Below, piece after piece: positions 27,912 to 64,000 of a stretch of DNA of 64,000 bases; position 1 is the stretch's first letter, and each line of letters begins with the position of its first letter. Both the position numbers and the translations under genes were made by a program. Where the stretch lies: NCBI GenBank assembly GCA_947501445.1, contig CANMVS010000014.1, positions 1 to 64,000 of the forward strand. Direction: 5' to 3'. The notes under the pieces are model-generated. The model made no database searches. It was given only the letters and a program-made list of their open reading frames with translations, and had not been told where the DNA came from. Source of the DNA: an uncultured Rhizobiaceae group bacterium (GTDB taxonomy: Bacteria > Pseudomonadota > Alphaproteobacteria > Rhizobiales > Rhizobiaceae).

Positions 27912-27928
27912 TGGGAGTATAACGAAGG

Positions 27929-32210: not shown

Positions 32211-32229
32211 CCTGTTTCTCCCATTGGCT

Positions 32230-32275: not shown

Positions 32276-32340
32276 TTTTTGTATATTTAAAATCAACGAA
32301 TTTTCCTCGCGCGCAAATCTGCGTCAACCCGGAGCAAATT

Positions 32341-32796
32341 ATGGAAAAAGAACAATACTTTGAGGACTATATCGAAGGTGACAGGAGAGAGACGCTCGGG
32401 CGGACGATAACGGAGACAGACATCGTTATTCATGCTGGACATACCGGTGACTTCTTTCCCCATCACATGGATGAGGAGTTCTGCAAGAAAGAAATTTTTG
32501 GCCGGCGCATCGCTCACGGGACCATGACATTTGCCATTGGCATTGGACTTACAGCCACGCAAATCAACCCCCGGGCTTTCACCTACGGCTATGAGCGGTT
32601 GCGGTTTCCAAATCCGGTGTACCCGGGCGACACCATCAGAACGACAGTGACCATTGGGGATATGTCGGATGATCCGAAACGCCCAAAATTTGGACGTGTT
32701 GTCGAGATCAGCGAAACAAAGAAGCAGGATGGGTCGACAGTCATGTACTGCGAACATATTCTGCTGGTTGAAAAGAGGTCATCTGATGGTTCATGA
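32341..32796 (+). CDS. MaoC-family dehydratase-like protein
   Basis: 151 residues from the ATG at 32341 (GGAG upstream; a longer frame upstream lacks support). Hot-dog-fold hydratase marks are FEDYIEGDRRETLGRTITETDIV, HAGHTGDFFPHHMDEEFC, GRRIAHGTMTFAIGIGL and TYGYERLRFPNPVYPGDTI, of which HAGHTGDFFPHHMD carries the likely catalytic Asp/His. It forms a pair with the divergent MaoC protein, with which it shares the YGY-RLRF segment, so the two may act as a heteromer or on successive substrates. It overlaps the following oxidoreductase gene by 11 bases. Confidence 0.82.
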   Translation: MEKEQYFEDYIEGDRRETLGRTITETDIVIHAGHTGDFFPHHMDEEFCKKEIFGRRIAHGTMTFAIGIGLTATQINPRAFTYGYERLRFPNPVYPGDTIRTTVTIGDMSDDPKRPKFGRVVEISETKKQDGSTVMYCEHILLVEKRSSDGS

Positions 32797-33850: not shown

Positions 33851-33869
33851 AGTTTCCGTTTTGATGGGG

Positions 33870-34718
33870 TCATTGAGAGGAGTTTTCCCCTTTTTCGTTT
33901 TTGTCACCGTGCAGCAGGTTCACCGGGTCCGATGAACCGCCTCCAAGGCTTCGGGTCAACGTACCTGCGGTCTCAATCAATGCATCCCGGCAGGCTTCAA
34001 AGGTCACCGAATCAAAGTACCGCTCAATATGCGGCACGGTCAGCGCAGCGATGGCACGTCCTGAATGGTCGAAAACAGGGGCAGAGATATTCACAATACC
34101 GCGGACCACAAAGCTGTCACGCACCTCATGGCCGGCTTTGCGGATGGCGATCAAATCAGATCGGACAGTCGTCTCGTCCATGCCATCGGGCAAAGGCACA
34201 TTGGCAAAAAACACCGCAACCTCCTCCTCGGGAAGATGCGCAAGAATAACCCGTCCTGATGATGCCTGCCAAAGATCGATTTTGGCACCCAGACGCACGG
34301 CCATCATATTATTGCCGGGCGAATCCACCTGGCCGACAACCAGAATGGAATCGTCACTGGCAATGGCCAGGTGAACCGATTGATTGATGATTTTGACCAA
34401 CCCGCGCATCAGCGGTCCGGCAAAGGCCGTCAAACGTCTGATCTTGGGAATGCGATGGGCAATCTCGAACAGAAACGTCGTCAATACATAGCGGTCGGAT
34501 AACGGCTCCTGCGCCACATAACCGCGGTTTTGCAACACCATCAACATGCGAAAAATTTCACCAACCGTTCGGCCCAACAGCCGAGCGATCTCGGATTGAC
34601 TGAGGCCTGTATCCTGATTGGATAACAGTTCGATGATGTCCAGCCCCTTGTCCAAAGCCGGTGCTGTATAGTCCCGTTTATCGTTTTTTTTCATAGGCAA
34701 TTCTAAATCTGAAACCAT
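33870..34718 (-). CDS. IclR-family transcriptional regulator
   Basis: About 282 residues. ATG codons at 34718 and 34694 are both possible and neither has a good ribosome binding site; family similarity begins just after the second. The N-terminal winged helix shows LSQSEIARLLGRTVGEIFRML, with recognition near RTVGEIFR. The C-terminal effector domain shows LGAKIDLWQASSGRVILAH and FVVRGIVNISAPVFDHSGRAIAALTV. It converges on the oxidoreductase gene, which is 19 bases away, and probably regulates the sugar-acid and MaoC operons. It lies directly downstream of the biosynthetic cluster on the same strand but separated by 121 bases, so I do not count it as part of that cluster. Confidence 0.85.
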   Translation of the reverse strand: MVSDLELPMKKNDKRDYTAPALDKGLDIIELLSNQDTGLSQSEIARLLGRTVGEIFRMLMVLQNRGYVAQEPLSDRYVLTTFLFEIAHRIPKIRRLTAFAGPLMRGLVKIINQSVHLAIASDDSILVVGQVDSPGNNMMAVRLGAKIDLWQASSGRVILAHLPEEEVAVFFANVPLPDGMDETTVRSDLIAIRKAGHEVRDSFVVRGIVNISAPVFDHSGRAIAALTVPHIERYFDSVTFEACRDALIETAGTLTRSLGGGSSDPVNLLHGDKNEKGENSSQ

Positions 34719-34839
34719 CAAAAGATTGAAATAACCAATTGGCCCTATCCAGGTATGGCACCTGTTTCAGCCCGTGTCGGTTTCATTCTAGCCACAAATT
34801 GGGGTTTGCGTAGATAAAATATCCACCATTGCAATCGCC

Positions 34840-36009
34840 CTATTCATCCAGAGCCGACACCAGTCGCCCGGCTAAGGCCTCCAAGAGTGAATCCGGATCT
34901 TCATCACGCAGACTGCCAACAATCATCAGGCGATCCGCGTTGCGCGCCAGACTGATAACAAATCCGCCGCCGCGCGCTGAACTTACAACCCAATTGCGTG
35001 CACCCAACGCTGAGGGTTGCGCGTCATTGCCAATGCGCGAGGGTGCGCCGGTTACCGTTGCTTCTGCCATGTGTTTCTCGACGCCGCCTTCTTCCAGAGC
35101 AATGGGCAGCGTCAACAACAGATCGGCGGCCCGTCCGGCATTAAGATTGTCAAATAGCTGGGCACGGACACCCTGTGCTGTTTCCCAGAATGGGCCCGGT
35201 GAAACCGCCGTAAACAAGTGGGAAATCGCCAAACCCGGCCCCGGTACCGGTTTCGGGTCGATGAAGCGGGTCATGTCGATTGCGTGCGCAACATTGTCCA
35301 CACCGGAAATGTCGCCTATTGCCGTCGCCACAACACTATTCAGATTGACGCCCTCGTTCTTGCAGCGATCATCCAGGGCGTCGGTTTGCTCAGCAGTCAA
35401 CATGGCGGTACGCAGGCGCGTGCCGCTGGATTTCGGCATAACGTCCGTCAAACGTTGGATACCAGCCGACTGCCACCGATGGGCAGCGCGTTGGCTCCAC
35501 CAGCTGTCAATCAATGCATCCGCATCGCTCAACCCGAACAGCTGTGTCGGAATCAATTCCTCACAGGCCGGAGCAAGTTGTCCAGGTGCCACATTGCGCA
35601 GAAATGCATCTGCCATCCACAGTCCGGAGCGATAGTCCACCAGTGCATGATTTAGCACCAGCAAAAGCATGGTATGTGCGGGGCCTTGAAGAAACCGCGC
35701 AATGAAGGGCGGATTGTGTTCTGTACCGACGCGCATTTTGAGCAATTGATCAGCGTGACTGATCCACATGTCGCCAGGATTTGCCTCCGACACAGTCTCC
35801 AAAAGGCCATCAAGGCCAGACTGTTCCCAGCGCGGTCGCCCGTTGCTCCCCGTTACAATCGACGGCACTTTGAACGAGTCCGGATGCTCTGTTGGTATCC
35901 CATGTTCCGCTTTGTGAAGATCCACCACGATAACCACGTTCATGGGCGCAACAACATCCAGCAGCCAAAACTTTGTCTCGTTGGGGCTCAGCATACGCAA
36001 CATGGTCAT
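34840..36009 (-). CDS. Condensation/PapA5-like acyltransferase, candidate product-release enzyme
   Basis: A 389-residue protein of the condensation-domain superfamily. The key motif is LNHALVDYRSG with His121 and Asp125 (HxxxD; the first His of the NRPS HHxxxDG is Asn120). A later segment, MLTAEQTDALDDRCKNEGVNLNSVVATAIG, has the cadence of PapA5/trehalose- and phthiocerol-type acyltransferases. Stand-alone members of this family take an acyl chain from a carrier protein and pass it to an alcohol or amine. It is the last gene on the strand of the PKS/NRPS cluster, 83 bases after the ABC1-kinase gene, and no thioesterase or reductase domain is present in the last module, so it may release the product as an ester or amide. 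Role inferred. Confidence 0.72.
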   Translation of the reverse strand: MTMLRMLSPNETKFWLLDVVAPMNVVIVVDLHKAEHGIPTEHPDSFKVPSIVTGSNGRPRWEQSGLDGLLETVSEANPGDMWISHADQLLKMRVGTEHNPPFIARFLQGPAHTMLLLVLNHALVDYRSGLWMADAFLRNVAPGQLAPACEELIPTQLFGLSDADALIDSWWSQRAAHRWQSAGIQRLTDVMPKSSGTRLRTAMLTAEQTDALDDRCKNEGVNLNSVVATAIGDISGVDNVAHAIDMTRFIDPKPVPGPGLAISHLFTAVSPGPFWETAQGVRAQLFDNLNAGRAADLLLTLPIALEEGGVEKHMAEATVTGAPSRIGNDAQPSALGARNWVVSSARGGGFVISLARNADRLMIVGSLRDEDPDSLLEALAGRLVSALDE

Positions 36010-36092
36010 TTCCAGCTCAACTTAAAACGTGACGCAATTGTACAGGCAAAACCGTCACACGAATTGTGCATCCCAGACCCTGTCTACAGGCT

Positions 36093-38015
36093 CTAGAAGG
36101 TGGAGGTCAGCCTGTTAATGATCCGACGCAACGCAAAACTAACGCCAATAAGCCCGACGATACCGAATACCATACCTAACTTCCCAACTTCAGAGGCAAT
36201 TGTCCGGAAATCATCGAATACATTCTCCTCAACCCATGCGACGCCCTGGCCATGCGCATCAAACAAAATCAAGCCCAGTACACAAAGAGTGACAACGACG
36301 CCCCAACGCAGCACACGCAGCAGACTGACAAAAGATAGAGCAAGTCGTTCAGAGATATGCCCGGCTGAGGCGGTGTATATCATTCTGCTGCGCAAGGCCG
36401 GTGACAGCAGGGCTTCATATTCGCCCATCGTGGTAATCGTATCACGCGCTATTTCCATTGTTTTGGGCACAATATAGGCGAGTCTGCGTTTCCGGCGGGT
36501 GGCGTTTTCAAAATAGTCTCTGAAAAACTTCATATAATTGGCATCGGGACAAAGGTGGCTGATAGAAGCATCCAATGTTGCCCAGGTTCGACTGATGCGC
36601 ATGAATTCCCAACTGAGCTGGACTTTGTGCTTGGCCATGACCTTGCCCGAATCACCACCCGCTGAAGCCATGGAGCGTTCGTGATAGGGAATGCCTGAAA
36701 GATGCGTGCGTGCGTCCCATTCTCGATAGAGCCTGATCAAATCCTTACGTAGCGGCGCGATTCTCTCAATACTTGGTGGAGTAATGGTCATCATCAATGA
36801 CAAGTCAGTCGCTTTGACAAAATCCTGTTGTGACAACGCACGCAGGCTGGCACGATAGTTGGAAAGAAATGTCGCTCCTGACGTGCCAATTGTTCCGAAG
36901 TCAATCAGCACCAGCTTGCTGTCTTTCAACAAAAAAATGTTGCCGGGATGCAAATCCGCGTGGAACAAATTGTCTTCAAACAGTTGGCGCATCGCCGACT
37001 GAAACAGCTTTGTGGCGACCTTCTTAGGCTTGACGTTATTGACTGCACACCAGTTCTTGAGCGCTTTAGGATCGCTTTTTCCCAATTCGATAAAATCAGT
37101 CATCAAGACGCCACGTATGTGCTCCGTGGTCAGCGTGTGACAGCCGCAATGTTTTTCGTATACGCGTGGTACAAATATTGAGTGTGATTTCAATGATTTA
37201 CGCATGCGTAACATATTGGCGGCTTCATAGCGAAAATCGAGTTCCTCTCGCACCATCTGTTCAAGTTCGTAGAGGGCCTCGTGCAGATGCAGGTATTTAC
37301 CCAATCCAAAAAAGCTGAAAAAACCAATCGTTTTACTGATGATAGCCAGATCACGTTGAAATGCTTCATTGCCATCTGGCCGAAGAATTTTTACGCAAAC
37401 CTTATTGGCAACCTTTGGCAGTTTTGCAAAATGCACCTGACTGACCGAGGCGGCAGCAAACGGTTGAGGATCGAACCATTCAAAGACATCCTCTATCTCC
37501 TTGCCCATATCAGAGCGAAAACTGGCTTGCACTTTTTCATAGGGAAATCCCACTGCCCGGTTTTGCAGACGTGCCAGTTCCTTGCATACAATATCCGGCA
37601 GGAGATCATTTCTCATCGCAACCAGCTGTCCGGCCTTGATCCACAAACCGCCAAGATTTTCAAATACTTCCCGCAACCGGACCGCAGAATCCTTCGCTGT
37701 ATAACGTCCTGAAATTTTGTAACGGATATTCGTTATCCGATATCCAACAAAAAGTTTCACAACACGCAATAGCGGAAACCGGCTGTTGCGACGCCCCTCC
37801 TCCAGCTCTATCGGAGGTTTCGCCATCTCTTTGTGAATCTGAGTCGGGATCAACTCCTCGGTGACTGTCTGTCTGCGTCTGTAGCGCTGTTCTTCGTCAA
37901 ACTGTTTTTCTTCAAGACTGACAATTTTATACGGATGGGCTCCCTGAGTGCCTGTCGCTGTCGTGACAAGCATCCGCTTGGGTACTGTTGGCAGCTTATT
38001 GAGCATGAGCATCAT
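36093..38015 (-). CDS. ABC1/UbiB-family atypical kinase-like protein with C-terminal membrane helices
   Basis: A 640-residue protein. The UbiB-type kinase-like core is complete: KxGQ motif at 127-130 (WIKAGQLV), Ala-rich loop AAASVSQVH at 187-195, ATP-site Lys209 (VCVKI), EELDFRYEA near 257-265, HADLHPGN at 352-359 and DFG at 372-374. Two hydrophobic segments at the C terminus (about 565-590 and 610-632) anchor it in the membrane. Its start overlaps the last PKS gene (ATGATG over the TGA), so translation is coupled to the assembly line. UbiB relatives support synthesis or handling of lipophilic quinones; here it could help extract, move or process a membrane-bound lipophilic product. Such a role is inference; it does not look like a housekeeping UbiB. 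Confidence 0.85.
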   Translation of the reverse strand: MMLMLNKLPTVPKRMLVTTATGTQGAHPYKIVSLEEKQFDEEQRYRRRQTVTEELIPTQIHKEMAKPPIELEEGRRNSRFPLLRVVKLFVGYRITNIRYKISGRYTAKDSAVRLREVFENLGGLWIKAGQLVAMRNDLLPDIVCKELARLQNRAVGFPYEKVQASFRSDMGKEIEDVFEWFDPQPFAAASVSQVHFAKLPKVANKVCVKILRPDGNEAFQRDLAIISKTIGFFSFFGLGKYLHLHEALYELEQMVREELDFRYEAANMLRMRKSLKSHSIFVPRVYEKHCGCHTLTTEHIRGVLMTDFIELGKSDPKALKNWCAVNNVKPKKVATKLFQSAMRQLFEDNLFHADLHPGNIFLLKDSKLVLIDFGTIGTSGATFLSNYRASLRALSQQDFVKATDLSLMMTITPPSIERIAPLRKDLIRLYREWDARTHLSGIPYHERSMASAGGDSGKVMAKHKVQLSWEFMRISRTWATLDASISHLCPDANYMKFFRDYFENATRRKRRLAYIVPKTMEIARDTITTMGEYEALLSPALRSRMIYTASAGHISERLALSFVSLLRVLRWGVVVTLCVLGLILFDAHGQGVAWVEENVFDDFRTIASEVGKLGMVFGIVGLIGVSFALRRIINRLTSTF

Positions 38016-41000
38016 TCCGATTTATCAAAATACTGATGTTCCATTTCAGAGAGAATTTCATCCAGTTCTCTATCGTCATACACCAGAAAATCATCGCCCG
38101 GCATTTCCGTAGGATTCGGATCATTGCCAGGCAGGACAGATTGATCCGGTTTTTCCGAGAATAACAACCCGTTGAGATAAGTGGCAAGGCCTGTAATCGT
38201 CGGGTAATTGAATAGAAGGGTAGCAGGATGTGTGACACCCGCCATTTTTCCAAGCCTGTTTCGCAATTCAATCGCCATCAGAGAATCAAGACCAATTTCC
38301 TGCAATGGCCGACCATGGGAGATTTCCTCTGTCTGAACGCTCATCAACCGCCGCACGTCCTGCTCAATCTGCAACGCCAAAGTGTCAATGCGCCGGGCAG
38401 GAGACAGACTGGAAATTTGCGAAACAGACAATTGCGATGGCATGGCCTGTGCAGGCCCATCGGTGTTCATTTCGCTGGTGGTTGCCGCATCAGAATTGTT
38501 CAGCAGACCGGAAAATATTGTTGCGCCCTCGCCAGCAGGCCCCTGTGCCAATTCAGCAAGGTTCAGTGGTAGCGCGACAAGCCGGCTCACACCGCTATCA
38601 AGCGAACGTTGCAAAGCCTTCAATCCATCCTCTGGCTTGATCAGCCCGACACCTGACCCCTCCAGTCTTGCGCCTGTGCCCTGTTCGTGGGCAGCCCCCA
38701 CATCACTCCAGGCGCCCCAGTCAATTGAAATCGCAGAGCGACCGGTGGCACTGCGCGCTTCTGCAATGGCATCCAGTGCAGCGGACGCAGCAGCGTGGTT
38801 TGCCTGTCCCGGTGACCCCAGCACACCTGCTGCCGATGAAAAGAGCACAAATGCATCCACATCGCCCAGCCGTCTATCAAGGTGGGCAGCAGCAACCGAT
38901 TTTGGAGCGGCGACGAAGGCCATGCGCTGCGGTGTTAACCCGCCAAGCAATGTATCATCCAAACGGCCCGCAGCATGAAACACACCTGCAATGTTCGGAC
39001 TGTTCTCGCCAATTTTGCTCAAGAGGTCGTCGATTGCCGACAAATCTTCCAAATCCACCTTGTGAACATCGACCTGAACGCCCGCGGACCGCAGGGTTTC
39101 AATGCGTTCATGTTGAACCGGTTGCAGGTCCCGGTGCGTTGTCACATGCAGGTGGGCTGCACCGCAATTTGCTGCCCATTCAGCAATCAGCAAGCCCAGG
39201 CCACCCGTGCCGCCGGTAATCAGATAGGATTTATCGGCCTCAAATGAGAATTTGTTCTGAAGCTTGAGGACAATTTTTCCGATATGATCAGCACGTTTCA
39301 TCAATGCCATTGCGGCATTGATTTCTCCCATTGGCATGACGGTAAGCGGTGGCAAAGCGATCCTGCCCGCCTCAACCATCTCAAGTGCCCCCGAAAGCAA
39401 GGCACCGCCCGTGCGATTATCAATCTCGTCCAGTGACACAAGTTGATAATTGATATCCGGAAAATCAGCGGCAATTGCGGCGCTGCCCCGGACATTCGAC
39501 CGACCGAGTTCAATGAATGCCCCGCCAGACTTTAATACACGAAGCCCGGCGTCTGTCAGATCTCCGGACAATGTGTTGATGACAACATCGATGCCATCTG
39601 GCGCAATGGCCCTAATGGAATTTTCATATTTTGTATCACGGGAGGAATAAACGTGTTGGATTCCGGCCGCCCGCAGTCTGCTGCGCTTCCACTGACTGCC
39701 CGCAGTTGCAAAAATCTGCGCCCCAGCCGCCTGTGCCAGCGCCAGAGCAAATTGGCCAAGCCCGCCGGTAGCTGTGTGAATAAGAATTTTTGACGCCGGT
39801 CCAAGATCAATCAGATCTTTGAAAATGTGAAAGGCCGTCATGCCGGCAACCGGCACCACTGCACCTTCAGCAAAGCTCATCGACGCAGGCAGGCGGGCAA
39901 CACGCTCAACCGGAACCATGACATGGCTGGAAAAACAGCCGCCAGCGAGCCCCACCACACAATCTCCGATGGAAAACGTGCTGACGTTGGGCCCGACAGC
40001 GGTGACAATGCCGGCACATTCACCGCCGGGTGCTGCTGTTCGTGCAACAGCACCAATACCCATCAACACATCTTTGAAGTTCAGTCCTGCCGCCCGTATG
40101 GCAATTTGCACCATGCCGGATGACGGTTCTTCGTGCACAACGGGCTCGAAACACAGTTGGTCACCATCGTCGCCAAAAATCCCGCAAAAAGGCTCATTTG
40201 GCGTTGTCGCCTGTGCTGCAACCGGCAACAATCGTTCAACAAAGCGACGACCATTGCGCCAGGCGACGGAGCGTTCCCCATCATTGATCTCGCCTTCACG
40301 CGCCATAAGAGCCATCGCATTTTCTTCGAGTGGATCGACGTCGATAACACGTATTTCTGCACCCGGCTCCTCCAGTGCAGCGGCTTTTACAAGCCCTGTT
40401 ACCGCGCTGTGATCAGCGTCTGGCACGTCATAGGGCAACACATGGCCCGCGCCACGGGTAGCCACGAGCAGCCTTGCATCGGATTTGATGACGTTTTGCA
40501 GTGATGCCAGCACTGAGTTCGCCGGATTGACTGCATTAAACGCTGCAGTGATCAAATCGAACCCACGGGTTACGTCTGGAGACTTACGCGCCAGTATGAC
40601 CCCTTGTTCAGCCAACCGCCCGGCCCCAAGTGTCAGCGTTTCCACATCGTCAAAACCATTTTGTAAAAGCAGTTCTTGCCAGGTGCTGGCGTCGATCAAA
40701 GGGTAATCGGGTCGCAAATCGACATCTGTACGGTTCCACCACCCTTTCGTTAGCGCAAAGGTCAGATCAAGCCATCGAGAAGGGACAAAACCTTCAATCA
40801 GCACCAGCCAACCACCGGGTACCAGAACCTCACTGGCATTCTGGATGGCACACCGGATATCCTGTGTTGCATGTAGCACATTTGCCGCGACGGCAACATC
40901 ATAGGATCGCGGACGAACATTCTGGTCAGCGAATGATCTTTCTGCGTTCAACACGGCCGTGTGAAACCAGGCATGTTGGCCGAATTCATCACCTGCTGCA

Positions 41001-44000
41001 GCAAGGAACCCGGGTGACACATCGGTAAACAGATACTCAGACAGCTGACCACCAAGCCTTGCCATCAGATGACGGGTTGAACCACCAGTACCCCCACCAA
41101 TTTCAAGTAACCTGCCATCGCGCCTGCCTGAAAGCGCCTGTCCTACAGCCTCGCACAAAAGGTTGTTGAGACCATAGGCAATGGCGCTCTCGGCATAAAG
41201 ATCACCGGCAGCCGCCGTCCCTTGATCAAACAACAAAGACACCGGATCGGTCTGTCCGCAAAGGACGGATGCAAGTGCGTCGCCACAACGTGCCAACAGT
41301 TGTGTTTCCATCCGTCGGTCCGCAAACCGATCAAGTAATGTGTTTGCCTGAGACTGCACATCTTCTGACGATGAAGGCAATTGCCCAAAGCGGTCCATCA
41401 GTCCATCGTCATTTAAATAGGTCTGATAACGCCCAACCAGCCGACGATAGAGCGGCAGTATCGAGGGATTTTGGACAACATCACCAACCGGCAAACCAGG
41501 CCCAAGCTGTCTGATAGCCTGCGCCATGTAGGCGCCGGCGAGCCTGTCCATGCCACGCAGATAGTCATCGTGAAGGACAACGTCGATGGGTGGTATCGCA
41601 AGATCGGCTGCTACACTTGCCGGAGCCGCCAAAACATTTCCGGGTTTTTCCACCCAGACTGGTCTGTAGAGAAAATCGATCCCTTTGTCCGCCATTGGTC
41701 GCGAGGCAAGCCCCTCCACTGTTGCCAGGGCATTTCCTTCATCGTCCACAAGCCAGATGTCACCGACGATCAGTCCGGATTCAGGCACAGCGGATCGGAG
41801 CTTCGCCTTACATACATATGCAGTTTCAGAATAAACGGCCTGATAAAGGCGCAATCCGTCAATTGAAACCGGCACATGCGCCTCTGCCTCACCGACAGCC
41901 GCAGCCAGCACCTGAAACATCGCATCCACGACAGTGGGGTGAAGAACAGCACCAAAGCCATGGCGACCTGTGTCGTCGAACCTGATTATTGCCGTTGCTG
42001 CGCCATCACCGCTGCGAATCTGGGAAAGTCGTTGCAACGCTGGCCCCAGATCGATCCCGTTGCCAGCCATATCACCATAAAACCGCTGTGGGCTGATATC
42101 ATTTGAGCAGTCTTCAACCTGAGGTGAACCAATGGGCACAATACTGCCGGGCATGGAATTGAGACGTGCGATCCGCTTCACATCGGACTGTGAGCCGCGC
42201 GCCAATATGGCCAGGGTCCCATCTGCATCCTGTTGGGTCTGAAGCTCGGTACCCTCGTGGTCAATCTCGAGCAAAGATTCAAATGTCATAGGGCCAAGAT
42301 TGCGGTTGCCCGTTGCCGCCAACGCAAATGAGACGAGGCCCGCGGCTGGCATTGCCACGCGACCATTGACCTTGTGGTCACCCAGCCAGGCGGGCCGGTC
42401 CGGCCAAAGACTGGTCACCATCGGCCTGTCTGCATTGTTGATCCTGGGCGGCTCAATCCAGTAGCGATCGCGTTGGAATGGATAACTTGGCAGTTCGGTC
42501 AGCGGCCCCGGCGGGACGAGTTTTGACCAATCCGGATCACATCCAAAAGCGTACAGATTGGCCACTGCATCCAGCAAAGCCTCGTCGTTGCCAATACCGC
42601 GCAACGCCGCAAAGGCATGAAATTCCTCACCATTTTCGCTCAACAAGGCCGTCAAACCGGCGCCAGATCCGATCTCAAGCAGGATTGAAGTACCCTGAGC
42701 GACAACAGTTTCAATCGCCCGATGGAAAACAACAGGTTTAACGGCCTGACGCGCCCAATGGTCTGCGTTGACAGAATTCGCAACATCGCCCGATACGGTG
42801 GAGATAAATGGTATGTTTGCAGGGAGCGACTGCATTTTCGCTGCTGCTGCTCGCAGTGGCTCCACGATGGATTCGATGGCTGGTGAATGAAAGGCAGTCT
42901 GACCGGCAAGCAACTGGGCGGCAATGCCCGCACGCTGGCAAATCAGCACAGCATGATCAACTGCAACCCGTGGGCCGCTAATCACCACATTCGAGTTTGA
43001 ATTATGTGCCGCAATCGAGACTCCAGACAGAGCCTCCGGCGGTATCTTCGCCTCAGATGCATTGATCGACGCCATTGCACCGCTACCAGCCCCCGCCATA
43101 AGACGCCCGCGCTCATGAGTAAACCTCAGTGCCTCATCCAAGCCAATCATTCCTGCGGCCCAGGCAGCAGCGATTTCACCAACACTATGGCCGCATACAA
43201 CAGCAGGATGGATACCGATGGAGCGCATCGTCCCGGTCAATCCGGCCTGCAGGGCAAACAGGCAAACCTGAAAATGCGCTGTATCCGCGGGGTCGACTGC
43301 TTGTGCACCGGTGAGGATTGGCATGAGTTCAGGAAATATGCCTATGGCCTGATCCAAAGTATCCCGAAATGGGGCAAACCGTGTCCGAAGTGAAGCAATA
43401 TCAGGCCATGAGCGACCGCCCTGGCCTGAGAAAACAAATGCGACGCAAGGTGGCATATCCGGCTTGCCGGGTTCGGTCAGCGCAAGGCGTTCGGCTGCCT
43501 GAGCAGCGCTACTGGCTACGATTGCAGCGCGGTGTTCATAAAATGGCCGACCAAGGGAAGCTGTTCTGACCGCAGCAGTGAACGAAAGGCGTCCATTCTT
43601 CAATGCTGCTTGATGATTGTGCACCATATCAGACAGTGCCTGAGTGTTCTTGGCAGATAGCGGATATATGTAAGGCGTTGCCATTGCAGACATATCCGGT
43701 TCAGCCGCTTCTGGTGCCCCGGATATGATGACGTTGGCATTTGTTCCACCGATACCAAATGAACTTATGCAAGCCCTGCGCGGCACCCCAACTGGCCAGG
43801 AGCGTGCGCGGTGTTGAATGTCAAATGGCGTATTTTTCAGTCCGAGATGAGGATTTGGCTGCGAGAAATTTGGCAACGCCGAAATTTCTCCATCCTCCAC
43901 AGCCACGACTGCTGCCATCAGCCCGACGATGCCGGAAGCCGCTTCCAGATGACCGAAGGTCGCTTTTGCTGTGCCAAGGGCAATGCGGCCCTGCGACAGT

Positions 44001-53561: not shown

Positions 53562-53563
53562 CC

Positions 53564-56500: not shown

Positions 56501-59500
56501 GGAAAGAAGATGACGTTTCGTCAGTTCACTCAGATCGTACTTGGCAACAAGTGCATCGACGTTTTGCGCAAAATGGACATCGTCTAGCCAGTTGGCAACT
56601 TCACGGCTGGCATCGACAGCACGCACCAGACGCAATCCATGCCCCCCCAAGAGCTCAGCCCAGTCCCTGGCTGAAGGGGTGTAGGAATGGGTTTGCGGAT
56701 TAACAATCGCATCACCTGTTGAAACAAAATCAGCGATAACCAGCAGTCCGCCTGCGCGCAGGCTGCCGGCAATATTTGCAAATAATCCCTCTTTATCCGC
56801 AATCAGGCCGGTGACCTCAACACCGAAAATCAGATCGGAATTTTGTGGAAATGGCACTTTGCTGGAATCGGCACGGTCCACCTTGACCCGGTCGCCAAGC
56901 CCCATGGCATTGAGGCGTTTTCGACCGACGGCCACCTGACCGGCTGAAACCGTAAATCCCCGCCCGGTCAAATGCGGATGTTCCAGCATCATGCTGGCCA
57001 GATCGGCAGCGTGTCCGCATCCATAGTCAAAAACAGTGCTAATCCGGTCAAAATCCAGATCCGCAAACAGGACATCTTTCAAAGCTCTTTGGGTTTGACG
57101 AAGACGTTCGTGCCCCTGTGGATCAATGTCCTTTTCAAACAATGAACGCACCCAGGAAAAATTGGGGTCCGGTTGCGGCAGGAAACCAAAGGTCAAATGG
57201 CCTTCTTCCGACGTTCCATCATCGCCGGCATCGCTGTAGTTTTGCGACAACACTGTCAGTTCATCATAAAAATCGTAGATAACAGCAGAGCCACGGGCGT
57301 CCGTTTCAATCTGTTTGCTCTGCGTATCTGACTGAGACATGTGCCCGCTGGCCGGGACATCCAACCAGTATCGACTGCGCTCAAAGGGCGTCGGCGGCAC
57401 ACCAACGACCTGTGCACCGCTGCCTACAAATAAAGGTTCCCAGTTCAGATGCACGCCGGCCAGATAGAGTTCGGTCGCTGCCGCCGCGATTGTCCGCCCG
57501 TCGTCAAGGCCACGGCGCAGGGACGCTATCTGCCTGCAGTCGGGCACCAGTTTTGCAGCCATGGCACTCAGAACACTGTCCGGGCCGATTTCCAGCAACA
57601 CATCCACTTTGTGGGTTTCAAGATGGCGAATGCCTTCGGCGAAACGTACAGGGTTCTTTGCATGATCCAGCCAGTAATCAACACCCAGATTTTCAACCTG
57701 TCGGCCGGTCAGATTGGATACCAGTGTCATCTGCGGCTTGTGCCAGACGATTTCACCAGCAGCGCGTGCCAGTTTCGGCAGGCAAGGTTCAATCAATGGC
57801 GAATGAAACGCATGCGACACTGCAAGCCTGTGTGTATCCACACCAGCATCGTCAAGCATGGCACCCAACCGGTCCAATGCGTCGGCTTCACCGGAGACGA
57901 CGGTGTTACGCGGCCCATTGATTGCGGCAATTGCCAACACACCTTTCACCCTGTCGAGATAGGGCAGGACTTCAGCAGCCTCTGAGAAAACCGCCATCAT
58001 TCCGCCACCCGAAGGCAAGGCCTGCATGGCTTTTCCTCGCGTTGCAGCCAATCGCAGCGCGTCCTCATTGGTGATTGCACCACTGATCGCAGCGGCAGCA
58101 AACTCACCCACACTATGTCCCAGAACAGCAACGGGTTGAATGCCCGCAGCACGCCAGAATTCGGCCAGAGCCAACTCCACCGCCACAATCAGCGGCTGCG
58201 CCAGATCCGTTCGCTCAATGGGGGTTTCACCAAATAATGTGTCCTTTGAGTTAATCCCCATAAGAGGATCCAGGAACGTGAAATTTCGATCCAGCGCCTG
58301 TCTGAATATTCGCTGGCCATCATACAAGCCGCGCGCCATACCCGCATATTGGCTACCCTGTCCGGTAAAGATAAATGCGACACGCGGTGCGGCTGTGACA
58401 TGATGACAAACCGCATTATCCAAAGCTTCACTGGCCTGTAAGGCCGTATCAGCGGTAACGGCCACCCGGTGAGGGAATGCGTGGCGCCGTGCTGTCGACG
58501 TATAGGTGATATTACGAAATGCGTTACCGGTTCCCTGCAGATATTGCTTCCACTGCGCGACGGCGGTCTCAAGTGCGCCGGCTGTTCGTGCCGATATGGC
58601 CAGTGTTCGTGCCGCATCTTCACTCGGCATCATTGCGGCTGGTAGTGGCTGATGGGATTCCACAATGACATGCGCATTTGTACCAGCAAACCCGAATGCA
58701 CTTACGCCGGCAATTCGCCGTCCTTCAATTGTCTCCAGCACCATCGACTGCTGCGGCACCACTATGGGTGCATCCAGCAGATCTATTTCAGGATTAAGAA
58801 CGCTGAATCCTGCCTGTGGCGGCACAATCCCACGATTGACGACCAGCAATGCCTTAATGAGACCTGCAATGCCTGCGGCAGCTTCGGTGTGCCCCAGATT
58901 GGCTTTGACGGAACCGACCAATACTGGCCCTGACCGTTCATGATCAAGTGATCTGGCAACCGCCTCAATTTCTATGGGGTCACCCAGGGGTGTCCCCGTA
59001 CCATGCGCCTCGACAAAACCAACCTGATTTGCCCGAACACCGGCATCTCGCAGGGCCTCTGTGATAACATTTTCCTGCGATGGTCCGTTGGGCGCTGTCA
59101 GTGAATTCGACCGACCATCCTGATTAACGGCCGATCCGCGTATGACGGCGATGACACGGTCATGGGCAACATCCGCATCACTCAACCGCTTGAGTATGAT
59201 GACACCGGCGCCCTCACCGTGGCCGAAACCATCAGCACTTGCATCAAATGGTTTGCAATGGCCATCAGGTGCGGTTGCACCAAGTTTTGTGCTGGCTACA
59301 AGCGGCTCGGGGGCCGTCATTAAATGCACGCCGCCAACAATAGCCAAATCACATTCACCGGCCCGCAGGCTTCTCACCGCCATATGTATCGCAACAAGAG
59401 ACGATGAACAGGCGGTATCAACAACCAGCGCTGGACCGGTTGTTCCCAGATAATAGGCAAGCCGACCTGCAATGACACTGGCGTGGCCACCTGTTGCCGA

Positions 59501-59968
59501 CCAGCCATCGATGAGCGCCGGGTCCGGCGCACCGCGTGCCATCAGTGAATAATTGGCGTTATAGGCACCGGCAAAAATGGCTGTACGGGTTCCTGCCAGG
59601 CTATCGGCAATAATTCCGGCATCCTCAAGCGCCTGATGACTTACTTCCAGAAACAAACGCTGGTGCGGATCCATGGTGGCAGCTTCGCGCGGCGCTATGC
59701 CAAAAAAACCAGCATCGAAGCGATCAATCCCGTCCTCCAGGAAACCGGCCTGCGTCATGTTCATTGTGCCGGGATGATCACGTTCACTGTTGTACCATTT
59801 TTCGCTGTCCCACCGGTCAGCCGGAACGGAAATAATCCCGTCGCGCTTTTCTTCGAGCAACTGCCACAGTGCATCCGGTCCATCAACACCACCAGCAAAT
59901 CGACAGCCTATTCCAATAACTGCAATCGGCTCCCGCTCGCTGGACTCGGTGTCAGATATCGCATTCAT
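53564..59968 (-). CDS. Type I PKS module, KS-AT-MT-MT-KR-ACP (two methyltransferases)
   Basis: 2134 residues from the ATG at 59968, four bases after the upstream stop; a longer frame overlaps that gene and lacks homology. KS: Cys187 (DTACSSSLV), His322, His360. AT: Ser619 in GHSVGE and HAFH at 719-722, predicting malonyl-CoA. MT1 (about 895-1175): VFDYGCGHAADL and FGVEVTGLIADKEGLF, the McyG-like class. MT2 (about 1225-1575): AIEIGGGTGATTAHL and ANVLHATSDI, the usual PKS C-MT class. KR: TGAYGGLG at 1746-1753, LAD near 1825, Tyr replaced by His1882 while Asn1886 stays. ACP: Ser2049 in AGLDSLMSIEL. The C-terminal tail (DADSLSALLAAEL) looks like a docking helix. Likely gives a C-methylated or gem-dimethyl, or C- plus O-methylated, unit. 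Confidence 0.9.
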   Translation of the reverse strand: MNAISDTESSEREPIAVIGIGCRFAGGVDGPDALWQLLEEKRDGIISVPADRWDSEKWYNSERDHPGTMNMTQAGFLEDGIDRFDAGFFGIAPREAATMDPHQRLFLEVSHQALEDAGIIADSLAGTRTAIFAGAYNANYSLMARGAPDPALIDGWSATGGHASVIAGRLAYYLGTTGPALVVDTACSSSLVAIHMAVRSLRAGECDLAIVGGVHLMTAPEPLVASTKLGATAPDGHCKPFDASADGFGHGEGAGVIILKRLSDADVAHDRVIAVIRGSAVNQDGRSNSLTAPNGPSQENVITEALRDAGVRANQVGFVEAHGTGTPLGDPIEIEAVARSLDHERSGPVLVGSVKANLGHTEAAAGIAGLIKALLVVNRGIVPPQAGFSVLNPEIDLLDAPIVVPQQSMVLETIEGRRIAGVSAFGFAGTNAHVIVESHQPLPAAMMPSEDAARTLAISARTAGALETAVAQWKQYLQGTGNAFRNITYTSTARRHAFPHRVAVTADTALQASEALDNAVCHHVTAAPRVAFIFTGQGSQYAGMARGLYDGQRIFRQALDRNFTFLDPLMGINSKDTLFGETPIERTDLAQPLIVAVELALAEFWRAAGIQPVAVLGHSVGEFAAAAISGAITNEDALRLAATRGKAMQALPSGGGMMAVFSEAAEVLPYLDRVKGVLAIAAINGPRNTVVSGEADALDRLGAMLDDAGVDTHRLAVSHAFHSPLIEPCLPKLARAAGEIVWHKPQMTLVSNLTGRQVENLGVDYWLDHAKNPVRFAEGIRHLETHKVDVLLEIGPDSVLSAMAAKLVPDCRQIASLRRGLDDGRTIAAAATELYLAGVHLNWEPLFVGSGAQVVGVPPTPFERSRYWLDVPASGHMSQSDTQSKQIETDARGSAVIYDFYDELTVLSQNYSDAGDDGTSEEGHLTFGFLPQPDPNFSWVRSLFEKDIDPQGHERLRQTQRALKDVLFADLDFDRISTVFDYGCGHAADLASMMLEHPHLTGRGFTVSAGQVAVGRKRLNAMGLGDRVKVDRADSSKVPFPQNSDLIFGVEVTGLIADKEGLFANIAGSLRAGGLLVIADFVSTGDAIVNPQTHSYTPSARDWAELLGGHGLRLVRAVDASREVANWLDDVHFAQNVDALVAKYDLSELTKRHLLSNGNIGGALRADLMQYMLLRAIASPHENRVALTSANLAMLEQAGSVDALSDEPSGKDWMYRIENRPAQSAANFDLTVINDAVGHVAVEETLALAQYSKTGQVLDDLSRQYIIAAFLSMGARHLSDVASLTVAPEHKRLVDHLVRSLADHGIGQLDGQGDIQLRLRDAMEQHPEAAGELQLLGRCGPKLDELLQGRLDPLELLFPGGDTALAEALYEHSPFSAAVQRMVAAAGAALPRDVPVNAIEIGGGTGATTAHLLKTLPPGSSYLFTDIGAALVARAEVKFAGTAIATSQFDIERPASSQNIAEGDFDMAVAANVLHATSDISATLRNVHDLLSPGGLLMLVENAGQILWGDLTFGLTAGMWAFTDTSTRDHALLSPAAWRRHLEDAGFEAIEFHDPGHEGIAGVSQQIFILARKCQQRRFAILGAPRAVTASLEQSLVSMGHGVDHLSSETSIPDFVTDLIYVGGLQADCSSEQVLLEAHSIVKNVASAKTQPRICLIATGQMETAALTGFGRGVSVELPDTHCRCITLDANQTLDAQSTRLATAIVKTRGDVALTGTANVTSQLILQPADNLTAPRLDGDAIYLVTGAYGGLGPLFVRWLYERGARNLVLAGRRPPSQATRMALDGIEARLETVDVSDPDALERLIALATSIAPLKGVFHATGALADGALINQSADDVLVPLKSKLSGALALDRLTRDISLDHFVLFSSAAGLLAPFGQANHAAANSALDQLALQRRLSGRVGLSVDWGAFAQAGAAVQPGIEEHVSETGLGFMPPEAAFAMLGHAMMQPEAQVAILDADWQQYRKRFSLGGIPFLLQSVCRSKGTQVAVTSSDPVDVKSWLSVIETAPQSHRADLLCDLIRAEVAAILRVGQEQIDDDKPLREAGLDSLMSIELRKNLSNAVAIRLGATLVFDYPSVRALSHHLGMTAFPDLFEPAQEEQVETDTGGADLDVLDADSLSALLAAELGEDVGRG
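55244..57286 (-). other. Tandem pair of unlike methyltransferase domains
   Basis: Two SAM-binding domains lie back to back between AT and KR of one module. The first carries DYGCGHAADL and DSSKVPFP, the second EIGGGTGATT and a NVLHAT motif. The two differ in sequence class, so this is not a recent tandem duplication. The second is the ordinary PKS C-methyltransferase; the first could be C- or O-directed. Confidence 0.8.
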
Positions 59969-59972
59969 GGGC

Positions 59973-62900
59973 CTATTCACTCCGGCTCTCTTTTTGCACT
60001 TCCATTCGGCGATTAATGGCATTGGTGACAGCAAGCACCGATGGGTAATTGAAGGCAAGTGTGACCGGCAGTCTGATACCCAGGCGCACAGACAGATCAT
60101 TGCGCAACTGAACGGCTACCAGGGAACTCATACCGAGGTCACCAAAGGACGACATCAACCTGGGGTCCATGCGATCAATTCCCAAAAGCCTGGAAACAGC
60201 ATCACTCACAACCTCATCAACCTTGGCGGTCTGTGGTCGATCCGGTATCGAAATCTCGATATTGGTACCCAACAATTGCGAGTACAGGGCAGCCCCGCTT
60301 GCATCCTGGATCGCGTGCCGGCTGATTTTGTTCCAGTCGCAATGCGCTGCGACCTGTTCTGTCACACCTGCCGCCATCAGCGCTTCCATTGCACAAAAGG
60401 CCCGATCCTGCGTGATTGTATCGATACCATGCGCCGCCCAGCGCCGCGCTAAGGTTTCGTCAGCGGATTCAAGCATGCCTGAACCATCCCAGGTACCCCA
60501 GTAAATACATGTGGCCGGGTGGCCCGCCGCATGGCGCGCACGCGCGATGGCACCAAGGCTTGCATTTGCCGCACCATAGGCACCGGCGCCGGTCAAAGGT
60601 ACATAGGCAGTTATGGACGAGAACAGCACGAATGTATCGATTTGTCGGTTGCGCGTAATACTATCCAACACAGAAGCACCCAGCAATTTGGAGCGAAACG
60701 GGGTTGAAAACTCGACTGCAGCCTGCCGGACCAGCAATGCGTTTGATACTGCACCTGCGGTGTGAAAGACGCCTTTGATCGGCCTTCCATCGCTTTCACT
60801 CTGTTCAAATATGGCTGCCATGGCATCGCGATCCGCTACATCCGCTGCAACGGTGATCACCTTCACCCCACGTGTCTCATAATCCGTGACTTCAGCAAGA
60901 GGCCGTGTATTGCGACCAACCAGCACCAGATGTTTTACACCACGCTCAACCAATCGCTGGGCCACAGCTCTACCTATGCCGCCGAACCCGCCTGTCACCA
61001 GGTAACTGGCCTGTGGGTCGGGATTGTATGGCACATATTTGTGCGATGATTTTTGAAGGCGCGGTACCTCTAGGCCCTGAGCCGTCACCCGCACAAAAGG
61101 GTCATTGTCGGCAATGCGCAGCGCATCAATGATGCGGTCGCCCGCATCTGAAAAACCCTGCTGAAGATCAATCATATGCACGTGTAGTTCAGGGTGTTCA
61201 ACCGCAATGGTTCGTCCAAGTGCCAATGCCGCCATCGCCAGGGCATTGCCTTCGCGCGCACCCTCGGCAAGAATTGCCAGACGGGGTACGACTTGCCGGT
61301 CAATCAATGCTGGTAACAATTGCTGAAGACGCGTCAATTCCTTGAAGGAACGCCCTGCCGGATACAAAATCTGACAGTCGCTGTCGCTCGGCAATTCATC
61401 CGGCAATACCACAACCACATCACATCCGGATTTTTGCAACTGCTGCGCAATTTTCTCGCTGAATGGACCATCGCCAATCAAAAATATACGGTTTGGAAGC
61501 GCACCGGTTGAACCTTCCACCGGCAGAGTCACCCATTCCTGCTGGAAGAACAGATCATCCATATCAGCGACAATAGTGTTGGCCCGGGGTATATGCTCCA
61601 ATTTGAAATCCGGCCAATGCCGTCTTCGACTAAAAGCTGTTGGCGCAAGATGCAGCCGCGTATTTTCGGAACATTGTTTTTCTGCCTCGGTCAGCATGTC
61701 GCTTGGCAGGGGTTCTCCACCGGCAACCGACCGCAGGCATTCCCTCACATCCTCTTGGGTTGAAACGACCGCTGTGCAAATCGCGGGTCCTGAAATCCGA
61801 CCGGCCCTCAAAGTATGGCAAAATGCACCGACGTTTGTCTGCTCATCCAGATTTGCCAACAGGCGTTTGGCTGTGTTTCGCAACGATGTTTCATTGGGTG
61901 CTGCCAAACGCAACTGAAAGGGGCCGTCCTGAAGAGCCTCGGCATCGCCCACCGGTGCCGGGCCCACTATGATATGGGCGTTGGTGCCACTCATGCCCAA
62001 CGCAGTGACAGCCGCATAGGGCGCTGCCTCGGACCATTCTCCGGGTGGTGTCTCAAGTGTTATCTGCTCACTGAATTCTGCAATCTCGACATTGAGCGTA
62101 CCCGGCTTTTCATGTCGCGGAATCCCATTGGCAGCCCGAGCCAGAATGACCTTGATGAGGGCGGCCATTCCTGACGCCGCCTCCAAATGCCCCAACTGTG
62201 GTTTTAGAGCGCCTATTACAACAGGCTGAGCCCGACCCGCCACGTCACCATAGACATGGTTGATCGCTTCAACTTCTATGGCGTCACCAAGACGCGTTCC
62301 CGTTGCGTGCGCTTCAACATATCCAATTTGACCGGGCTCGATTGCCGCCTGCTCAATGGCGCGGCGCATGATCGTGCCCTGGGCCGGTGCGTTGGGTGCT
62401 GCAACGCCGTTGCCATGCCCGTCCTGTCCGCTCGATGCTGCCAAAATGACAGCATGGATCGGGTCACCATCCCGTTGCGCATCACTCAGCCGCCGCAATA
62501 CTAAAGTGCCTGCCCCTTCGCCGCGCACGAACCCATCAGCATCTTCATCAAAAGAACGACTGCCGCCGGTGGCGGACCAAAGCCCATGATTGTCAATTGC
62601 CTTGGACACCACATCCGACAATACAAGATTGACTGCAGCCACCACTGCATTGTCACACTCATTTCTGCGCAAGGCCTGACAGGCAAGATCAACCGCAACC
62701 AGCGACGATGCACAGGCTGCATCAATGACATAGCTGGGGCCGCGTAGATCAAAATGATAGGAAACCCGTCCCGGCATAAGGCTGTGAAAACTGCCTGCAA
62801 TGGCATGGCGTGCAAGCGAGGTGGGGCCATCCATCAAAGCGGCGGAAAAATCATTATTTTGTGCACCCAGAGCCAGATGAACGCTGGTTCTTGATCCGAT

Positions 62901-63317
62901 CAACTGGCCACCGGCCAGGGCTGCATCTTCCATCGCATCGCGGGTAACTTCCAGCAACAGGCGCAAATGGGGGTCTGTGGCGATGGCCTCTTCAGCGTCC
63001 ATACCAAAGGCCTCAGCGTCGAATTCAGCGATACTATCAAAAAAACCGCCGACTTTGTAACGCTCGTCCCGTGGACCGGCCATATCCGAAATGCGCGCAG
63101 ATGATACCGGCCCGACAGCAGTGTCGCCACGCTGCAGAAAATCAGCAAATTCAATGGGTCCGTCAACACCCGGGAACCGGCATCCGATACCAACGACTGC
63201 AATCGGTTCGCGTTCCGCATGAATTCGCGCTTCCAGCTGCGCCCGCAATTGCACCATGGCAGCCGCTGTACGTCTGTTGATCAGTTCGGACCGTTTTTCG
63301 TCAGATTGACTGCTCAA
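59973..63317 (-). CDS. AT-less type I PKS module, KS-KR-ACP
   Basis: An 1114-residue module. The N-terminal ~38 residues form a charged coiled docking segment. KS: Cys202 in DAACASSLV, His337 (EAHATGT) and His377 (LGHLEAAS). No acyltransferase follows: residues ~460-580 are a short linker containing only the post-AT-like AFSRRRHW. KR: pseudo-Rossmann part 590-760, TGGFGGIG at 775-782, Ser900/901, Tyr914 and Asn918 (GAYGAAN), catalytically complete, no LDD. ACP: DLGMSSLVAVQL with the phosphopantetheine Ser1065; the preceding Asp of the usual DSL is Ser. The first start codon overlaps the upstream PKS stop by 4 bases. Extender units must be supplied by an AT elsewhere. Product step: beta-hydroxyacyl. 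Confidence 0.9.
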   Translation of the reverse strand: MSSQSDEKRSELINRRTAAAMVQLRAQLEARIHAEREPIAVVGIGCRFPGVDGPIEFADFLQRGDTAVGPVSSARISDMAGPRDERYKVGGFFDSIAEFDAEAFGMDAEEAIATDPHLRLLLEVTRDAMEDAALAGGQLIGSRTSVHLALGAQNNDFSAALMDGPTSLARHAIAGSFHSLMPGRVSYHFDLRGPSYVIDAACASSLVAVDLACQALRRNECDNAVVAAVNLVLSDVVSKAIDNHGLWSATGGSRSFDEDADGFVRGEGAGTLVLRRLSDAQRDGDPIHAVILAASSGQDGHGNGVAAPNAPAQGTIMRRAIEQAAIEPGQIGYVEAHATGTRLGDAIEVEAINHVYGDVAGRAQPVVIGALKPQLGHLEAASGMAALIKVILARAANGIPRHEKPGTLNVEIAEFSEQITLETPPGEWSEAAPYAAVTALGMSGTNAHIIVGPAPVGDAEALQDGPFQLRLAAPNETSLRNTAKRLLANLDEQTNVGAFCHTLRAGRISGPAICTAVVSTQEDVRECLRSVAGGEPLPSDMLTEAEKQCSENTRLHLAPTAFSRRRHWPDFKLEHIPRANTIVADMDDLFFQQEWVTLPVEGSTGALPNRIFLIGDGPFSEKIAQQLQKSGCDVVVVLPDELPSDSDCQILYPAGRSFKELTRLQQLLPALIDRQVVPRLAILAEGAREGNALAMAALALGRTIAVEHPELHVHMIDLQQGFSDAGDRIIDALRIADNDPFVRVTAQGLEVPRLQKSSHKYVPYNPDPQASYLVTGGFGGIGRAVAQRLVERGVKHLVLVGRNTRPLAEVTDYETRGVKVITVAADVADRDAMAAIFEQSESDGRPIKGVFHTAGAVSNALLVRQAAVEFSTPFRSKLLGASVLDSITRNRQIDTFVLFSSITAYVPLTGAGAYGAANASLGAIARARHAAGHPATCIYWGTWDGSGMLESADETLARRWAAHGIDTITQDRAFCAMEALMAAGVTEQVAAHCDWNKISRHAIQDASGAALYSQLLGTNIEISIPDRPQTAKVDEVVSDAVSRLLGIDRMDPRLMSSFGDLGMSSLVAVQLRNDLSVRLGIRLPVTLAFNYPSVLAVTNAINRRMEVQKESRSE

Positions 63318-64000
63318 ATCTTGTTCCCCAACAGCCGTTCGACCTCTGCCAATTGCTGCTCAAGGAGATCAAGCGTATCTGAGTCATCCAGATCACTGGT
63401 TTTTACCCCCGGCAAAGGCAGCGTCGCCGACTGTACACCCTTTGAAAGCCTACCATCGGACGTTTGAGAAAGAAATTCAACAACATCATCAACATGCGGG
63501 TGATTATAAACAAGCGTTCCGGGCACGCGATGGCCAAGCCGCGTACTCAGTGAGTCGGAAAACTCTGCCGCCAAAAGGGAATCCAGACCCATTTCCCGGA
63601 ATGGGCGAAGGGGATCAATTTCCTGATCTTGCGGCAGTTTCAGGACATTCCTGAGACACCCATTCACAAGATCACGAACTGAAACGTTGGGATCCACTTT
63701 AGGTTCCACCTTTGACCGGTCACCGGCACCGCGCCTGACCGGATCGGCCATATGCTCCAGAAGCGGAGACGCCGCCGCAATCTTTTCATAGGTGGACCAG
63801 TTCACATCCACAATAACCGGATCTATCGATCCACCTGCACACAGGTCAAAAACAGCACAGGCGCTGTCGGGTTCCATTGGTTCTATGCCGAAACGCCGCC
63901 AGGCCTCCTGCGCACCTTCGCCCAACCGGGCACCAATCCCGACGGACCACGGCCCCCATAAAATTGACGTTGCATGATATCCGGCTGAGCGCCTGTTTTG
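63314..64000 (-). CDS. Type I PKS, C-terminal part only (KR end and ACP), truncated by the window edge
   Basis: The frame is open to base 64000, so the upstream part of this PKS is outside the window. The visible start (HATSILWGPWSVGIGARLG) is the C-terminal end of a KR domain, with the conserved WGPW. It is followed by an ACP with Ser in REMGLDSLLAAEF and a C-terminal acidic/coiled tail (DSDTLDLLEQQLAEVERLL) of docking type. It overlaps the next gene by 4 bases (ATGA-like). The tail would pair with the charged N-terminal helix of the AT-less KS-KR-ACP protein. No AT or KS of this module can be judged here. Confidence 0.88.
   Translation of the reverse strand, partial: QNRRSAGYHATSILWGPWSVGIGARLGEGAQEAWRRFGIEPMEPDSACAVFDLCAGGSIDPVIVDVNWSTYEKIAAASPLLEHMADPVRRGAGDRSKVEPKVDPNVSVRDLVNGCLRNVLKLPQDQEIDPLRPFREMGLDSLLAAEFSDSLSTRLGHRVPGTLVYNHPHVDDVVEFLSQTSDGRLSKGVQSATLPLPGVKTSDLDDSDTLDLLEQQLAEVERLLGNKI

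Follow-up and report, generated by a model that had tools for sequence, protein, structure and literature searches.

Probable stepwise loss of acyltransferase domains in a hybrid PKS-NRPS line of cis-AT lineage from an uncultured Rhizobiaceae bacterium

Acyltransferase-bearing and AT-less modules in one line

The window analyzed here is a stretch of 64,000 nucleotides at the start of contig C14 (CANMVS010000014.1; 164,945 bp) in the genome assembly of an uncultured Rhizobiaceae group bacterium (GCA_947501445.1; 6.82 Mb, 110 contigs). It holds only the distal part of a contiguous polyketide synthase (PKS) and nonribosomal peptide synthetase (NRPS) line that spans C14 34.8–108 kb. The whole line consists of 11 PKS modules (M1 to M11), an internal module with cyclization (Cy), adenylation (A), oxidase (Ox) and peptidyl carrier protein (PCP) domains, and a terminal Cy-A-MT-PCP-TE module (MT, methyltransferase; TE, thioesterase). 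An acyltransferase (AT) is kept in five of the 11 PKS modules, and M2, M4, M6, M8, M9 and M11 are AT-less. We consider this to be one hybrid line of the cis-AT lineage, whose ATs were lost stepwise and whose AT-less acyl carrier proteins (ACPs) are loaded by an AT from outside their own module (probability roughly 0.78). The ATs would have been lost in place, step by step.

Along M1 to M11, ATs occur in the pattern + - + - + - + - - + -, and a genome-wide search with PF00698 gave no match in any of the six AT-less modules. These modules were further analyzed with a hidden Markov model (HMM) made from the line's own KS-AT regions (KS, ketosynthase). Sequence of the KS side was matched in all six (29.9–114.1 bits), and sequence of the post-AT side was matched in M6 (26.3 bits), M8 (30.7 bits), M11 (10.3 bits) and M9 (6.8 bits), the longest AT remnants being those of M6 and M8. 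In M6 (51519..52364, minus strand; 114.1 bits on the KS side), the KS-AT linker, eroded AT ends and the post-AT linker are present and the catalytic core is gone. The initial annotation had described one eroded AT and one absent AT among the modules of the window, and Pfam and the line's own HMMs agreed on both (M6 and M4, respectively). Two ATs are never adjacent in this pattern, as in 21 of the 462 arrangements of five ATs in 11 modules; with 4.5% expected by chance, the alternation is weak as evidence.

Orthologous modules in relatives

Screening named genomes for the thiazole protein of the line produced 27 pattern-matching stretches, one of which was confirmed, in a metagenome-assembled genome of the Competibacteraceae (G778). 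Among 40 genomes of the same order, six showed matches at 1e-150 or below, and a nearly full thiazole protein was found in three (G778, G805, and G807). Both G805 and G807 contain the full set of nine synthase genes, with the M5 protein seen only in part in G805. In G778, mostly on separate contigs, there are M1, M2, M5, the thiazole module, M8, M9, and M10, together with KS3, the last part of M3, the first part of KS4, pieces of M6, and KS11; M7 was not found in it. The thiazole module is 49% identical to its orthologs in the three genomes, and the other comparisons with G805 and G807 proteins gave about 40–50% identity over longer alignments and 54–62% where mainly the KS aligned. The relatives are closer to each other, with 78–88% identity between G805 and G807 (eight proteins compared) and 78–86% between G778 and G807 (three proteins compared). 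The relatives share with the Rhizobiaceae line the module set, the domain content and the monophyly of the KS of each module, and all three have a type II thioesterase (TEII); G805 and G807 also share the terminal Cy-A-MT-PCP-TE module, a UbiB-type kinase, and a relative of a DUF6312 protein. Since the relatives have the same module set, an assembly error, which the initial annotation had named as a possible flaw, is unlikely.

The AT pattern in both G805 and G807 is + + + - + - + + - + +, and independent PF00698 searches concurred (eight line ATs in each, five in the Rhizobiaceae line). In G778, ATs are present in M1, M5, M8, and M10 and absent from M2, M6, and M9, the start of the M11 AT was seen, and the AT status of M3, M4, and M7 was not seen. 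Three modules that are AT-less here (M2, M8, and M11) are thus AT-bearing in relatives. An AT is missing from M6 and M9 in each of the three relatives and from M4 in both relatives where it was seen. In G805 and G807, AT-less gaps measure 221–288 aa from the KS to the next domain, and AT-bearing modules have an AT of about 300 aa starting 76–152 aa after the KS. The three AT-less modules of these genomes are non-adjacent, as in 84 of 165 arrangements, and this spacing gave no support.

G805 and G807 differ from the Rhizobiaceae line in keeping eight of the 11 ATs, in having their genes distributed over five contigs each (C14, C39, C26, C50, and C17 in G805; C101, C138, C51, C56, and C110 in G807), and in M11, where a single ACP was detected in place of the two similar tandem ACPs found here. 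The D-E contigs and the H-I-J contigs carry no further KS of the line, and D-E lie kilobases from the contig ends; because of this, the pathway genes of both genomes appear to be really dispersed, whereas those described here are contiguous. The terminal synthase on C17 of G805 has an extra oxidase-like domain after the TE, and none was detected in G807.

The alternative that best survives, an improbable one, is that the ancestor had no ATs at M2, M8, and M11 and that lines of the order of G778 acquired them. The absence of the M2 AT from G778, otherwise close to G805 and G807, fits a regain there. However, the M8 of the Rhizobiaceae line retains, at either edge of the gap, sequence resembling an AT, and the G807 ATs of M2, M8, and M11 are at most 57% identical to the ATs at other modules and therefore do not look like recent copies of them. 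Under stepwise loss, the simplest course would be loss at M2, M8, and M11 in the Rhizobiaceae line and a separate loss of the M2 AT in G778.

Integrity of the AT-less modules

The ratio of nonsynonymous to synonymous substitutions (dN/dS) between G805 and G807 was 0.090, 0.084, and 0.029 for the KS of the AT-less modules M4, M6, and M9, respectively, and 0.055–0.081 for the KS of the eight AT-bearing modules. In these relatives, purifying selection acts on the KS of modules without an AT. Together with the AT-less state of M6 and M9 in three of three relatives and of M4 in both relatives seen, this speaks against a pathway that is decaying in the Rhizobiaceae bacterium, with dead AT-less modules, which we regard as slightly less probable still than AT acquisition. 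Decay would agree with the ragged state of several AT remnants, with a dehydratase (DH) domain in M3 that has no catalytic His and Asp, and with the replacement of the ketoreductase (KR) Tyr by His in M5, M7, M8, M10, and M11; all five are MT-bearing, and the MT-bearing M1 retains the Tyr. Against it, every synthase gene is a single open frame, the Cys-His-His triad is kept in all 11 KS, and the carrier-protein serines are present throughout the line. Since the M3 DH has no catalytic His and Asp, the enoylreductase (ER) of M3 is probably silent.

KS phylogeny and domain order

The KS phylogeny that had been proposed as a check of the initial annotation was run on 72 KS with a quick method and SH-aLRT support, and a second tree was obtained with FastTree from 101 KS, orthologs included, with one trans-AT KS chosen as the root. 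KS matches shorter than 331 aa were excluded from both, and the 101-KS tree is without the partial G778 KS of M4, M5, and M8. In the main tree, 10 of the 11 KS of the line fell inside a cis-AT clade of 28 rows (SH-aLRT 99), with AT-less and AT-bearing modules intermixed: the AT-less KS6, KS8, and KS9 join the AT-bearing KS5 (90), and KS11 joins KS10 (83). KS7, which directly follows the NRPS module, grouped with post-NRPS KS, its clade partners being KS of other NRPS-PKS hybrids; the position of M4 is unsure in the second tree. In the 101-KS tree, each of the 11 modules was monophyletic with its orthologs (0.979–1.0).

Three KS were compared with PDB sequences by phmmer: KS6 and KS4, from AT-less modules, and KS5, from an AT-bearing one. 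CurL scored 487.6, 289.5, and 436.2 bits for KS6, KS4, and KS5, respectively, and the best single KS among the entries that we take to be trans-AT scored about 364, 243, and 352 bits. Entry 7zma, presumably a trans-AT bimodule, outscored CurL with each of the three queries, but its score sums two stretches of the same chain. Domain order also followed the cis-AT type, being DH-MT-(ER)-KR here versus DH-KR-MT in the trans-AT lines compared. The line combines AT-bearing and AT-less modules and has the KS lineage and domain order of cis-AT systems (M4 unsure) without an AT in every module; its KS did not lie in trans-AT clades, and with ATs in five of 11 modules it is not an AT-less line.

The initial annotation had interpreted the line as a mosaic of cis-AT and trans-AT architectures, and a true mosaic, in which a trans-AT PKS was the source of AT-less modules that became linked to cis-AT modules, is the least probable explanation: AT-less modules are indeed interspersed with AT-bearing ones and one of the trees puts the M4 KS next to AT-less trans-AT KS, but KS2, KS6, KS8, KS9, and KS11 group with cis-AT KS, the domain order is of cis type, AT flanks and remnants persist, no dedicated AT gene was found by PF00698 in the own genome, and the AT-bearing orthologs already contradict it for M2, M8, and M11.

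Loading of the AT-less modules

The genome contains 11 PF00698 matches (E ≤ 0.001), 10 of them in frames of at least 2,127 aa, five in the line and five elsewhere (C4, C5, and C3). A dedicated trans-AT was discarded as a candidate, the single stand-alone match of this model, which would miss a highly divergent AT, being FabD, within a fabD-fabG-fabF block. Other multidomain KS-AT systems are located at C4 243–246 kb, C5 1–16 kb, and C3 244–255 kb, and the layout of the last is perhaps that of a polyunsaturated fatty acid synthase-like system. G805 and G807 have one stand-alone FabD-like protein each (219.9 and 221.1 bits, respectively; cut-off of the fabD model, 260.9). Since the stand-alone AT found is FabD only, either FabD or a malonyl AT of another module of the line must serve the AT-less modules, whose ACPs would receive malonyl from it. 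A more tentative idea is that the line represents an intermediate between cis-AT and trans-AT lines, whose remaining malonyl ATs might load their own ACPs and those of other, perhaps neighboring, modules. If so, sharing of ATs would make individual copies dispensable, and these could be lost one by one without recruitment of a dedicated trans-AT.

Several observations weigh against stepwise loss in a cis-AT line loaded in this way. M2 is also AT-less in G778, which demands that its AT was either lost twice or lost once and regained, and the G778 contig assigned to M8 (C136) was assigned by domain-wise matches (KS, DH, MT, and KR), its best match over the full length, with the AT included, being M10. 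No AT-bearing relative was seen for M4, M6, and M9, so that flanks and remnants are the evidence for loss in these modules; the post-AT match was nil in M4 (0.1 bits) and none was reported in M2. The selection test covers the relatives G805 and G807 only. Concerning phylogeny, KS7 lies outside the main cis clade, in a post-NRPS KS clade of 16 rows (100), two of them trans-AT, and the M4 KS is a long branch in the main tree and stands beside three AT-less trans-AT KS in the 101-KS tree. With the root chosen for that tree, the family clade without M7 (62 tips, 0.993) includes five AT-less trans-AT rows. To these is added the blind spot of PF00698 mentioned above.

Organization of the line

Domains were assigned with Pfam and with HMMs built from the line's own domains, the PCP of the thiazole module with Pfam. 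The initial annotation had described a colinear PKS/NRPS line of complete modules, and the genes proved to be real, with long open frames. The line continues past the window to C14:108064. On the minus strand, C14 78,831-36,093 codes for the TEII (C14 78013-78831), six synthases of 4,899, 1,114, 2,178, 1,498, 1,360, and 2,330 aa, and a UbiB-type kinase. The plus-strand set (C14 80,613-108,064) codes for synthases of 3,518, 2,125, and 3,481 aa containing M8 and M9 (C14 80613-91169), M10 (C14 91150-97527), and M11 with the terminal Cy-A-MT-PCP-TE module (C14 97619-108064), followed by an RND pump on the minus strand (C14 108167-112450). Colinearity and the single integrated TE would give the chain order ACP0-M1-M2-M3-M4-M5-M6-Cys thiazole module-M7-M8-M9-M10-M11-Cys Cy-A-MT-PCP-TE.

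All modules in the window are encoded on the minus strand. The window begins its part of the line with the 3' end of the 4,899-aa protein (63314..64000, extending to C14:78013), which contains ACP0 and M1 to M3: M1 is KS-AT-MT-KR, M2 is KS-KR, and M3 is KS-AT-DH-ER-KR with the dead DH. M4 (59973..63317) is KS-[AT lost]-KR-ACP, M5 (53564..60100) is KS-AT-MT(O-MT-like)-MT-KR-ACP, and M6 (49065..53561) is KS-[AT lost]-DH-KR-ACP. The thiazole-type module (45004..49086) consists of a TubC_N docking domain, Cy, A, Ox, and PCP, and M7 (38012..45004) is KS-AT-DH-MT-ER-KR-ACP. Outside the window, M8 is KS-DH-MT-KR, M9 is KS-DH-ER-KR, M10 is KS-AT-DH-MT-KR, and M11 is KS-DH-MT-KR with its tandem ACP. 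Two intact malonyl-type ATs had been predicted in the window. By motifs whose malonyl-type meaning we assume, this holds for the AT of M5 (57449..58378; GHSVG and HAFH), and the AT of M7 (42548..43441; GHSVG and TAFH) is malonyl-like and non-canonical. Elsewhere, M10 has TAFH, M3 has NGFH, and M1 has IAYH with a GNGGQW start, unlike the other ATs.

Thiazole formation and predicted product

The internal module contains a Cy domain (47626..48876) with the motif DLLIADAAS (DxxxxDxxS type), an A domain (46387..47517), and a nitroreductase-type Ox domain (45517..46074; PF00881, 62.7 bits), all on the minus strand. The A domain reads FDLSVYD, with N, L.S, L, and IW at later positions, and both A domains of the line (FDLSVYD and FDLSVFD, plus later N, S, L, and IW) are of a type that we take to specify cysteine. 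The Cy-A-Ox-PCP module with a cysteine code recognized in the initial annotation was thereby upheld, as was, by domain content, its picture of a thiazole-type line with C-methylating modules and AT-less beside AT-bearing modules. In the terminal module, Cy, MT, PCP, and TE follow in the order expected of a yersiniabactin-like alpha-methylthiazoline module, and the MT keeps the S-adenosylmethionine motif EIGGGLG.

Judging from its domains, the line probably makes a methyl-branched natural product containing sulfur rings. The product would comprise a polyol part, a vinyl-thiazole, a chain that is C-methylated and in part unsaturated, and a thiazoline carboxyl at its end, and the TE would release or cyclize it. 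The terminal thiazoline would be alpha-methylated, or epimerized if the terminal MT belongs to the epimerase type; according to PMC12997852, an MT-like epimerase occurs in thiazoline-forming lines of the agrochelin/massiliachelin kind. The line predicts a family of thiazole polyketides, linked here to no known product, in a few distant bacteria.

Flanking genes

The region 34840–38015 had been included in the PKS, and it does not belong to it. The gene at 36093..38015 (minus strand) codes for a UbiB/ABC1-family atypical kinase (J; PF03109, 180.1 bits) that keeps kinase-like motifs and is 45–48% identical to the G805 and G807 genes, which adjoin the terminal synthase gene in both genomes. A second UbiB is on C26. 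A role of J in self-resistance or product binding is possible. An open frame of 389 aa (K; 34840..36009, minus strand) follows the kinase gene, perhaps in the same operon, and at the limits used it matched nothing among Pfam and NCBIfam families, PDB sequences, and plasmids. Further left (23865–34721) there are genes for sugar-acid dehydratase-like, sugar ABC transport, and CoA-transferase-like proteins and an IclR-type regulator, which are probably outside the cluster.

One end of C14 matched a single plasmid record, over 82 bases, and the other end matched 56 (Rhizobium, 16; Pantoea, 15; Sinorhizobium, 6; Phyllobacterium, 5; and others). The best-covered matches of the latter end showed about 70–76% identity, with shorter pieces higher and some at least 99%.

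Distribution

Family and class searches scored two candidates per genome. Among 394 genomes of the family, the next match to the thiazole protein (842.9 bits, against 3,098.1 for the protein itself) was in G070, with 42% identity over residues 69-1331, in a line made mostly of NRPS modules. Seven other genomes of the same genus were listed, two with weak matches to the thiazole protein and five with none at 1e-30. For the terminal Cy-A-MT-PCP-TE stretch, 385 genomes of the class were searched (limit 1e-100), and the matches listed from other genomes extend at most to residue 919 of 1,681. On these results, the line looks like a rare horizontal acquisition here. In the literature covered, which includes few subscription papers, no paper was found that deals with this line or with the loss of ATs at orthologous modules of cis-AT lines, and no similar alphaproteobacterial thiazole line or UbiB-type kinase in such clusters turned up.

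The best plasmid match to KS6 showed 51.8% identity. In a Burkholderia arboris plasmid (L045), a cis-lineage KS is followed by an apparently eroded AT without GHSxG (8018-12460, plus strand), which suggests AT erosion in an unrelated line.

Comparison with known systems

Cis-AT PKS of the CurL kind, CurL being the nearest single KS structure by score, share the KS lineage of the line, and the cyanobacterial cis-AT lines compared share its DH-MT-ER-KR order but keep the AT in their modules. Enacyloxin and kirromycin are made by hybrid cis/trans-AT lines, and lines of this type likewise join AT-bearing and AT-less modules; the present one differs in that no dedicated stand-alone AT was found and in that AT loss was traced at orthologous modules. 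Two trans-AT lines from the same bacterial class, which we take to be patellazole-like, also combine PKS with a Cy-A module. They occur in genomes of different families (G605, 1.5 Mb; G744, 5.0 Mb), with AT-less PKS-NRPS frames of 3,558 and 3,564 aa, respectively, and an identical domain string. They differ from the present line in their AT-less KS (save for one ACP-KS-AT in G744), their DH-KR-MT order, and the separate AT genes of G744. Agrochelin/massiliachelin from Stappia (PMC12997852) also derives from an alphaproteobacterial thiazole-type PKS-NRPS, but is a small siderophore, and the accessible part of that source does not describe an eleven-module PKS.

Lines with both AT-bearing and AT-less modules were already counted as a category, with 122 PKS and 351 PKS-NRPS among 8,799 catalogued lines (PMC10394414), so the mixture itself is not novel. 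What is new is the tracing of AT losses in a line whose product was matched to none known. Here, AT-bearing and AT-less versions of orthologous modules can be paired directly between lineages, with the deletion edges visible, and the question of loading thereby becomes a direct biochemical test, where the origin and loading of AT-less modules have, in our view, usually been argued from fully trans-AT lines.

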